DNA from: Actinomadura rudentiformis
Lineage (GTDB): Bacteria; Actinomycetota; Actinomycetes; Streptosporangiales; Streptosporangiaceae
Length of the DNA: 64,000 nucleotides
Assembly: GCF_008923185.1 (NCBI RefSeq)
Contig: NZ_WBMT01000003.1
Coordinates: forward strand, 310,001 to 374,000
Direction of reading: 5' to 3'
This document shows, piece by piece, positions 2,803 to 4,073 of the stretch. Every line of letters starts with the position of its first letter. Positions within the stretch are counted from its first letter, which is position 1. The position numbers and the translations under genes are program-made. A model generated the notes under the pieces. It was given only the letters and a program-made list of their open reading frames with translations. It was not told the DNA's origin and made no database searches.

Positions 2803-2848
2803 CAACGCCGATAGAGATTGGCCGTTGTGCCGGCGGCCATTGGGAGCT

Positions 2849-2864
2849 ATCGTGATATCACGAT
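2849..2864. promoter_or_regulatory. 16-bp perfect palindrome overlapping the antitoxin-like start codon
   Basis: ATCGTGATATCACGAT is a perfect palindrome whose last two bases are the first two of the ATG at 2863. Ribbon-helix-helix antitoxins commonly bind such sites in their own promoters and repress the operon. A site this close to the start would block initiation or ribosome access. The regulatory role is inferred. Confidence 0.6.
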
Positions 2865-3093
2865 GTCTAAAGGACAAGCTACCAAGAACATGGTGCTGCG
2901 GCTCGATCCCGAGCTCGCCGAACGGCTGCGGCTGGTCGCCGAGGTCGAGGGCCGGACGGTGTCGGACGTGGCACGCGAGGCGGTGGCCGCACTGGTCGAC
3001 CAGCGGCGTGCCGACAAACGTTTCCAGGCGCTGCTCGAAGAGAACCTCGCCCGCCACGAAGCGTCGCTGCGCATGTTGCGGGACTCGGAATGA
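2863..3093 (+). CDS. Ribbon-helix-helix (CopG/Arc-type) antitoxin-like protein
   Basis: A 76-residue protein. Residues about 8-45 form a ribbon-helix-helix: a short beta strand (MVLRLD), then helix A (ELAERLRLVAEVEG), a turn and helix B (TVSDVAREAVAALVD). The C-terminal half (about 46-76) is a charged helix, as in antitoxins that use it to wrap a toxin. I start at ATG 2863 because the fold begins directly after it and the palindrome lies immediately upstream; an in-frame ATG-like start at 2818 would place non-homologous residues in front. Its TGA overlaps the ATG of the Doc/Clp-N gene (ATGA), the usual antitoxin-toxin layout. Confidence 0.8.
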   Translation: MSKGQATKNMVLRLDPELAERLRLVAEVEGRTVSDVAREAVAALVDQRRADKRFQALLEENLARHEASLRMLRDSE

Positions 3094-4073
3094 CACCCGC
3101 CGACCTCGTCGCCATCGCGGCCCGGCTGCTGGGCCTCGACACCGCGCAGGCCCTCGCGCTCGTCGACCTTGAAGCCGCCGAGACCGCCCTGAGCGAGGCC
3201 GCCCTGAATGAGACCGCGGAGCTGGATCTCCCGGTCGGGGAGCAGGCCGCCGCGCTGCTGGTGGCCCTCGTCCGCCACCGCCCGTTCGCCCGGGCCAACC
3301 GGCAGGTGGCGCTGCTCGCCACGCTGCAGTTCCTCGGCGAACGCGGTGTGGATCTCGACCTGCGCCCGGCCGACGCCCGCGACCTCATCGACTCGATCGC
3401 GGCCGGGACCACCGGCCGAGCCGCCGTCGCCGCGTGGATCGCCGCGCGGCTCCGTTCCCACGAGAGGCCGGACATGTCGAAGAAGCCCGCCCACTTCACC
3501 GAACGTGCCCATAACGCCGTAGCGGCCGCGCGTTCCGCCGCCACGGCCATGAGCCACAACTACGTCGGCACCGAACACCTGCTCCTCGGCCTGCTGGACG
3601 CGGGCGGCATCGGCGGCGAGGCGCTCGACCGGCTGAGCCTCACGCCGGAGGAGATCCGTACCGCGATCGAGCGGATCGTGGGCTACGGCACCGCCAGCGG
3701 CACAGACCCGCACCTGACGCCGCGCTCGAAGAAGGTCCTTGACCTTGCCCGGCGCGAGGCCAGGCGCCTGCGCTCCGACCATGTCGACACCGAGCACATC
3801 CTGCTGGCGATCCTCCGCGAGGGAGAGGGGCTCGCGGCGCAAATCCTGCACGAACGCGTGGGCACCGACCGGGTCACGGTCATGCGGACGGTGATGGACC
3901 TCGTCCGCGCCGAGGATGCGCCCTCCCGCAGCCACCGCCGCAAATACATCCTGGCGGAGTTGGAGCAGGTCTTCGAGGAGAACGAACGCCTGCACGGTGA
4001 GGTGGACCGGCTGCGCGCCCTCCTGCGCCGGCACGGCATCGAACCCGACAACGGCACCTCCCGTAGCGCCTGA
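3090..4073 (+). CDS. Degenerate Doc-like domain fused to two Clp-N repeats and a coiled coil
   Basis: A 327-residue three-part protein. Residues 1-128 resemble the Fic/Doc death-on-curing toxins, including the downstream FLGERGVDL and DARDLIDSIAAG segments. The catalytic loop reads RHRPFARANRQ where active Doc proteins have H-x-F-x-D-G-N-K-R: aligned on the Asn, the catalytic His position is Arg (a His is one residue earlier), the acidic residue is Arg and the final Arg is Gln. Residues about 136-275 hold two Clp-N repeats (NYVGTEHLLLGLL and HVDTEHILLAIL) like the ClpC N-domain, but with no AAA+ module. Residues about 285-315 are a predicted leucine-heptad coiled coil. A second ATG at 3474 with a GAGAGG site could give a separate Clp-N protein. 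Doc assignment is moderate; Clp-N is strong. Confidence 0.8.
   Translation: MTPADLVAIAARLLGLDTAQALALVDLEAAETALSEAALNETAELDLPVGEQAAALLVALVRHRPFARANRQVALLATLQFLGERGVDLDLRPADARDLIDSIAAGTTGRAAVAAWIAARLRSHERPDMSKKPAHFTERAHNAVAAARSAATAMSHNYVGTEHLLLGLLDAGGIGGEALDRLSLTPEEIRTAIERIVGYGTASGTDPHLTPRSKKVLDLARREARRLRSDHVDTEHILLAILREGEGLAAQILHERVGTDRVTVMRTVMDLVRAEDAPSRSHRRKYILAELEQVFEENERLHGEVDRLRALLRRHGIEPDNGTSRSA

Follow-up and report, generated by a model that had tools for sequence, protein, structure and literature searches.

A Probable Toxin-Antitoxin-Derived Switch for a Dead-Doc/ClpC-Receptor Fusion in Actinomadura rudentiformis and Other Soil Actinobacteria

Introduction

The closest described counterpart of the gene pair analyzed here is the mycobacterial ClpC2, a Clp_N protein that lacks AAA+ modules. 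According to Taylor et al. (2023, PMC10030653), ClpC2 is an autorepressor that is released by cyclomarin and acts as a sponge. Its operator is situated only 1-2 nucleotides before the open reading frame, and the placing of the promoter, as given there, suggests a leaderless transcript. Rare conflict systems in which vWA proteins carry fused Clp_N repeats have also been described (PMC7159879).

The locus described in this report is found in a 64,000-nucleotide stretch of the Actinomadura rudentiformis genome (10.7 Mb in 50 contigs), hereafter referred to as the window. It encodes a small RHH protein followed by a fusion of a Doc domain with a ruined active site (a pseudo-Doc) to two Clp_N repeats. 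As in ClpC2, the Clp_N repeats of the fusion are not accompanied by AAA+ modules, and a putative palindromic operator abuts the start codon. The two systems differ in several respects. The autorepression of ClpC2 has been shown, whereas that of the window pair is only proposed; ClpC2 is a single chain with its own N-terminal dimerizing domain, whereas the N-terminus of the fusion is a predicted Doc fold and DNA binding is assigned to the RHH protein; and the operators themselves differ, namely CGTCAAC-n5-GTTGACG in ClpC2 versus GATATC boxes in the window. Additionally, the residues of the groove that ClpC1 and ClpC2 have in common are changed in the window copy. Judged by eye, the host has a ClpC2-like gene of its own (L003), as well as a further Clp_N protein (L004).

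With the type II operons of the Phd-Doc and RHH-Doc kinds, the window family shares the gene order, the overlapping frames, the small DNA-binding partner, the Doc fold, and, as judged by sequence, a putative operator at the promoter. It departs from them in that the catalytic histidine is missing, a Clp_N or membrane payload is attached, and divergence is faster in the toxin-like than in the antitoxin-like gene. The N-domain of the host ClpC1 has the same fold as the Clp_N part of the fusions and is 47-78% identical to it, but ClpC1 contains AAA+ motors and its N-domain is nearly invariant, whereas the fusions have no motors and their Clp_N parts are variable. Three free-standing Clp_N proteins from the same bacterial family (L009, L017, and L032) likewise have Clp_N repeats and a C-terminal LRxHGI[DE]P motif, which is common to all Clp_N members of the window family except L109. 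Unlike the fusions, they carry no pseudo-Doc in frame and, by eye, no adjoining RHH-like frame. L009 and L032 also display a ClpC-like M-domain by eye and thus amount to ClpC without its AAA+ modules; we know of no description of free-standing Clp_N proteins such as these. The preliminary description of the locus had named no described system with its architecture, and, indeed, no paper on an RHH-Doc-Clp_N system was found in the open-licence literature, as judged by titles and abstract openings among the matches listed.

Results

The first gene of the pair (positions 2863-3093, plus strand) encodes a 76-residue RHH protein of the CopG type, an antitoxin homologue with a conserved C-terminal tail, which is matched by the Pfam family RHH_1 at 22.4 bits (cut-off 20.5). 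The second gene (3090-4073, plus strand) shares an ATGA overlap with the first and encodes the fusion of 327 residues. Both frames are intact at the coordinates first given, and the window and its relatives exhibit the two-gene layout of type II toxin-antitoxin systems, with the small DNA-binding partner first and the frames overlapping. The fusion, encoded throughout on the plus strand, is composed of a Doc-fold domain delineated by residues 1-125 (3090-3464), two Clp_N repeats with the predicted fold of a ClpC N-domain from about residue 133 to residue 277 (3486-3920), and a C-terminal coiled coil ending in LRALLRRHGIEPDNG (3933-4070). Clp_N matches at 90.2 bits over two stretches and no AAA+ family appears in the fusion at E up to 1 (Pfam), in keeping with the earlier assignment of two Clp_N repeats and a coiled coil without a motor. 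Two AAA+ modules are likewise absent from the Pfam families matched by the 12 members in the A4 alignment (E≤0.1). PADLOC returned a single match for the fusion, with an E of 0.036, and none for the RHH protein. The pair is flanked upstream by an ArsR-family regulator and an AHSA1-domain gene and downstream by a DJ-1/PfpI-AraC regulator (Pfam). Elsewhere in the window, a single frame on the minus strand (584-1501) combines an F420H2-dependent quinone reductase domain (143.6 bits) with a hemerythrin domain (56.9 bits).

At the level of sequence, the link between the N-terminal domain and Doc is weak. The Fic family of Pfam scores 19 bits (cut-off 24) and DOC_P1 of NCBIfam 22.2 bits (cut-off 38.65), and the Doc domain would therefore escape standard annotation. 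The A1 profile reaches the Doc-family chain 9vzc with an E of 0.00081 and P1 Doc with values of 0.051-0.13. Structure prediction settles the matter in favor of the Doc helical fold. When residues 1-125 were modeled alone with 12 sequences, the pLDDT was 92.5 and the pTM 0.87, and in a Foldseek search of the PDB all five rows with E≤0.001 corresponded to P1 Doc (3dd7, 3k33, and 3kh2), with TM-scores by query of 0.68-0.80 and a probability of 1.00, followed by other Fic proteins. The model of the complete fusion has a pLDDT of 88.3 and a pTM of 0.57. Its residues 1-122 superimpose on the Doc chain 3kh2_C with a Z of 15.6 and an rmsd of 2.8 for 118 aligned residues, and its residues 133-277 on the cyclomarin-bound ClpC1 N-domain (3wdc) with a Z of 23.7 and an rmsd of 1.4 for 144 aligned residues. 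Of the two checks suggested beforehand for the Doc-like domain, the profile search thus remained below threshold and the structure prediction returned a Fic/Doc fold.

The ruined Fic motif of the fusion, RPFARANRQ, occupies residues 64-72 (3279-3305, plus strand). Compared with HxFxDGNKR, it shows the three altered catalytic positions listed previously, namely His to Arg, Asp to Arg, and Arg to Gln, and it does not match the catalytic motif HxFx[D/N][A/G]N[K/R]R. As judged from the nine Fic-motif columns, the catalytic histidine is lost in all 13 full-length pseudo-Docs, being replaced by Arg in 11, by Lys in one, and by Pro in one. All eight members whose Clp_N repeats are clear retain the motif asparagine, which is missing from every one of the five other full-length members. 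Two of the 13 have Glu at the acidic position (L106 and L109), and four have the final Arg. A toxin variant had been among the options considered; one acting by Fic catalysis is unlikely, since the histidine is missing from every member.

At the start of the RHH gene lies the 16-bp perfect palindrome reported earlier, ATCGTGATATCACGAT (2849-2864), which reaches into the start codon. It proved to be part of a longer array, GCTATC-GT-GATATC-AC-GAT (2846-2864), in which the boxes recur with a spacing of 8 bp. RHH regulators such as MetJ bind tandem boxes of eight base pairs. GATATC boxes so spaced, with no more than one mismatch across two boxes, are present in the 70 nucleotides before the RHH start at all 14 loci of the family, and in the control 28 of 21,587 overlapping 70-base tiles of the same loci, outside the operators, score as well. 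On the plus strand of the window only the operator site, in two overlapping registers, reaches this score, and the extended operator pattern, allowing up to one mismatch, does not recur anywhere else in the 10.7-Mb genome (the palindrome being read on both strands). Among canonical RHH-Doc relatives, boxes of a related kind were seen in L081 and L084 (two mismatches over two boxes) but not in L078 (four mismatches); seven further RHH-Doc loci in the comparison, with five or six mismatches, lack them as well. Inside the operator, 15 nucleotides before the ATG, is the hexamer TATCGT (2848-2853, plus strand), which conforms to TANNNT, a −10-like consensus. By raw count, hexamers of this type begin at −15 to −12 in 13 of the 14 loci (none in L110); the box sequence itself generates them. 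Its location suggests that the promoter would be occluded by a bound operator and that the transcript may be leaderless or nearly so. Conserved at all 14 loci and unique in the genome, the array is a putative autoregulatory operator at the promoter, and the RHH protein is presumably an autorepressor.

The RHH/pseudo-Doc system is rare and patchy. When 341 genomes of the family were searched by tblastn with the N-domain, 18 of them, including the host, had a match at E≤1e-6; seven were pseudo-Docs and the rest canonical or half-degenerate Docs, and no other genome of the same genus was among them. In a profile search of 345 genomes of the order, eight matches, one of them from the host, exceeded 140 bits and the rest scored 70 bits or less, and samples of 396 genomes from the phylum and 394 from the class contained nothing above 60 bits besides the host. 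Searching a collection of 84,980 species with the RHH alignment yielded 12 loci, a scan that rests on two strict peptide patterns and may miss more divergent relatives. Once duplicates were merged on the basis of sequence and lengths (L110=L038, L103=L060, L109=L040, L106=L043, L107=L039, and L111=L041), 14 loci were obtained: the window, L037, L110, L103, L100, L105, L102, L104, L109, L106, L107, L111, L108, and L101. Excluded from all counts were L061, whose frame is at a contig end, and L062, in which the RHH and pseudo-Doc genes are broken over frames; L101 was left out of the full-length counts (n=13). The named hosts belong to Kribbella (L100 and L105), Actinopolymorpha (L102 and L104), Trebonia kvetii (L111), Actinospica durhamensis (L108), and Pseudonocardia humida (L101), and their orders are the Propionibacteriales, Streptosporangiales, Catenulisporales, and Pseudonocardiales. 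The Clp_N members belong to the first two of these.

An RHH gene precedes all 13 full-length pseudo-Docs. Five of these, L100, L102, L104, L105, and L108, were found only through the RHH scan, as was L101, and for them the linkage holds by construction; the unbiased figure is eight of eight loci found by Doc-domain searches. The gene order that was to be looked for in related genomes thus recurs, and no full-length pseudo-Doc stands apart from an RHH gene. With respect to a mobile-element origin, no relative was confirmed in viral contigs, where nine stretches matched a pattern, or in phages, and in plasmids the RHH matches were limited to four remote ones (Methylocystis), with none for the N-domain. 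Common neighbors, as defined by blastp matches above 90 bits between frames of at least 100 residues, were limited to the Kribbella pair, plus one 46%-identical frame in L102 and L111. There is no neighbor common to the loci, and therefore none explains the function.

The overall architecture of the members varies C-terminal to the pseudo-Doc. Eight members have two clear Clp_N repeats (the window, L037, L100, L102, L103, L104, L105, and L110), and L109 contains a diverged pair. Pfam matched Clp_N in eight of the 12 A4 rows, as compared to seven clear cases in A4, the extra row being presumably L109. The remaining four full-length members (L106, L107, L108, and L111) have no Clp_N repeats and all end with a hydrophobic segment carrying a lipobox-like [LV]xxACS (for example, L107, 4228-4986). 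Thus, the pseudo-Doc/Clp_N architecture first noted in the window does define a family, but the Clp_N part is not obligatory. A gene for lipoprotein diacylglyceryl transferase, lgt (Pfam LGT), lies directly upstream in L039 (=L107) and L041 (=L111), and by eye a trace of the same kind is seen in a shifted frame upstream in L106. Following the Clp_N repeats, L037, L103, and L110 match the M-domain of the host ClpC1 with identities of 62, 55, and 44% over 78, 73, and 55 residues, respectively (E 3e-28 to 5e-15). By their sequences, these three appear to be ClpC regulatory domains without the motors. The M-domain hairpin is absent from the window fusion. In L101 (4225-4533), the partner is only 102 residues long; the RHH gene, the operator, the first helices, and the C-terminal motif are kept, and the center of the pseudo-Doc and the Clp_N repeats are gone. 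It is either a natural minimal version or a deletion.

In a tree that included 34 other Docs of at least 90 residues from the profile-match list, a set capped at that number, the 13 pseudo-Docs fall on one side of a branch with a support of 100/98. Nested within is a group of the four membrane-tail members and L109 (support 100/99); with the midpoint root, this nesting suggests that Clp_N preceded the membrane tail. The 13 pseudo-Docs score 138-160 bits against their own profile. The next Doc, L078, with 74.5 bits, is the closest other Doc by profile score and has a canonical HAFIDGNKR motif and a similar RHH gene. Several unfused Docs from the same family (L042, L045, L047, L049, and L070) keep the histidine and have lost other motif residues, their sequences reading HSPFARGGRR, HRPFTRGDKQ, HRPFATGGAK, HHPFARGDRQ, and HHPFERGARR, respectively; in the first four, an RHH gene lies upstream. 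Docs with ruined motifs also occur far below the scores of the pseudo-Docs, namely L099 (from 1183; LRPFARGNARV, 35.4 bits) and L072 (VEALSERNRPF, 43.5 bits).

Substitution rates were calculated according to Nei and Gojobori with the Jukes-Cantor correction. In the two Kribbella loci, L100 and L105, which are syntenic on both sides, the RHH proteins are 84% identical with a dN/dS of 0.12. The corresponding values for the partner are 52% and 0.61 in the pseudo-Doc, 53% and 0.36 in the Clp_N part, and 49% and 0.79 in the tail. The neighboring EF-Tu-like GTPase, PPK2, and AFG1 genes are 79-93% identical with dN/dS values of 0.10-0.25; these are three of five neighboring frames, the other two having no Pfam match and possibly not being genes. 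For the Actinopolymorpha loci, L102 and L104, where no synteny was seen, the identities and dN/dS values are 83% and 0.07 (RHH), 45% and 0.43 (pseudo-Doc), and 65% and 0.35 (Clp_N), at a dS of 0.84-1.69. The median pairwise identities among the eight Clp_N members are 71% for RHH, 54% for Clp_N, and 42% for the pseudo-Doc. The ClpC1 N-domains of the family are 99-100% identical in pairs, although these 26 were drawn from the best-scoring loci and were required to start with MFERF[TS]DRAR, a draw biased toward conservation. Judging by these comparisons, the RHH regulator is held and its partner is free, or driven, to change. The fast divergence of the partner could reflect a conflict-type decoy; relaxed constraint could produce the same pattern.

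The ligand surface of the Clp_N part was compared with that of ClpC1, in which Phe 2, Phe 80, and Glu 89 are critical for cyclomarin (PMC10030653). In the window fusion these cyclomarin-binding residues are replaced by Pro, Leu, and Asp, and Arg is found at the positions of Leu 92 and Leu 96. Cyclomarin-type binding by the window fusion accordingly looks doubtful from its sequence, and the altered groove counts against an antibiotic as its own ligand. Among the eight Clp_N members, Phe 2 is kept in six, Phe 80 in six, and Glu 89 in four, and in the alignment, judged by eye, an enrichment of changes in the antibiotic groove is not evident. Glu 32 and Glu 106 of ClpC are phosphoarginine-site residues that were mutated in PMC12583610. 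The TEH glutamates of both repeats, together with Lys 85, are retained in all eight Clp_N members. We take these glutamates to be the counterparts of Glu 32 and Glu 106. To our knowledge, there is no McsB arginine kinase in actinobacteria.

Discussion

The reading that we tentatively prefer, and hold to be possible, is that the dead Doc serves as a handle joining an RHH autorepressor to a ClpC mimic without a motor, and that this mimic detects or sequesters ligands of the ClpC N-domain. The pair would have descended from an RHH-Doc toxin-antitoxin operon, and its Doc domain would have lost catalysis and been kept as a handle that binds the tail of the RHH protein. This handle would connect the autorepressor to the ClpC N-domain and, in some relatives, to the M-domain as well. 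At rest, the RHH/pseudo-Doc complex would occupy the tandem GATATC boxes that cover its own promoter. Binding of a ligand to the Clp_N part, candidates being an adaptor, a tagged substrate, or a ClpC-targeting peptide antibiotic or phage protein, would ease repression such that more fusion is made, and the surplus Clp_N would soak up the ligand and spare ClpC. We infer the binding of the RHH protein to the pseudo-Doc, repression by their complex, relief by ligand, and protection of ClpC from the features given above. The pair would, in effect, be a split, two-gene analogue of mycobacterial ClpC2 with a toxin fold as the joint.

Several results count in favor of such a sensor or decoy. These include the predicted Doc fold, the loss of the histidine, the single clade, the linkage to RHH, the canonical kin L078, and the unique operator with its −10-like hexamer; the ClpC N-domain payload in eight members, the M-domain in three, and the retained TEH glutamates and Lys 85; and the conserved RHH protein with its fast-changing partner in the Kribbella and Actinopolymorpha pairs, along with the variable Clp_N part. 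The parallel with ClpC2, an autorepressor and sponge with an operator beside the reading frame and a promoter placing suggestive of a leaderless transcript, points in the same direction. Against it are the altered groove and the missing M-domain of the window fusion, the option of relaxed constraint, and the members without Clp_N. Indeed, Clp_N is not essential to the operon, since the four membrane-tail members and L101 do without it. The preliminary description had further suggested that the Clp_N part might serve as an adaptor or as a means of docking to ClpC. Clp_N is, however, the receptor domain of ClpC itself rather than a usual ClpC-docking module, and a decoy or sensor is for that reason at least as natural as an adaptor.

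The same toxin-antitoxin ancestry can be read in other ways. The pair may be a toxin-antitoxin system with a swapped payload, the pseudo-Doc being an antitoxin-binding handle and the C-terminal part, whether Clp_N or membrane tail, doing the harm, for example by starving or blocking ClpC, and the RHH protein neutralizing it and regulating its own synthesis. The operon layout agrees with this, as do the pairing of one handle with either of two payloads that are not related to each other (Clp_N and the membrane segment bearing [LV]xxACS), the fast divergence of the payload gene, and the patchy distribution. Yet toxins usually change less than antitoxins, the reverse of the pattern seen here, and no relative was found in viral contigs or phages, with only remote RHH matches in plasmids; we consider this explanation unlikely. 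A further reading, in which the RHH protein and the dead Doc handle form a modular chassis for exchangeable payloads (the ClpC N-domain with or without the M-domain, or a lipoprotein-like membrane tail), and in which the payload rather than the Doc enzyme would act, by interfering with ClpC proteolysis or with the membrane, the toxin fold having become a docking handle, strikes us as rather unlikely.

The fusion might instead regulate ClpC by docking on it through contacts between N-domain and M-domain, or between M-domains in L037, L103, and L110, thereby stabilizing resting ClpC or feeding it the RHH protein or other clients. The N-domain of Staphylococcus aureus ClpC does hold the resting state through contacts that include the phosphoarginine sites and the M-domains (PMC12583610), and the matching glutamates are kept in all eight Clp_N members and the M-domain in three. 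But the actinobacterial ClpC1 is not the S. aureus enzyme and the window fusion has no M-domain, and this role is likewise improbable. That the Doc domain is an active variant toxin with a rewired Fic site, Arg taking the place of His, would accord with the prevalence of Arg (11 of 13, with Lys in one more) and with the asparagine kept in all eight clear Clp_N members. However, residues at the acidic and at the final Arg position are free to vary, and of the three parts compared it is the Doc domain that diverges most, which leaves rewiring a very slight chance. Scarcely more probable is a toxin-antitoxin remnant drifting to loss after a chance fusion. The dN/dS of the partner is above that of the RHH gene and of the neighbors, and broken (L062) and shortened (L101) copies exist, but open frames and the operator persist in all 13 full-length members across three orders, dN/dS stays below 1, the members form one clade, and the Clp_N members other than L109 share the C-terminal motif.

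The reading of the locus as a sensor or decoy, if true, would mean that a toxin fold has been turned into a regulatory handle. It would also constitute a second, independently built route, besides ClpC2, to a self-regulated, motor-less ClpC receptor domain in actinobacteria. Several natural peptide antibiotics target ClpC1, and a diversified family of decoys in soil actinobacteria would probe what binds ClpC in nature. The pair also allows the idea that toxin-antitoxin systems, once retired, are recruited as sensors to be tested directly. On this reading, several soil actinobacteria would use a compact switch of toxin-antitoxin descent to control a dead-toxin/ClpC-receptor protein, which may be a self-regulated sensor or decoy.
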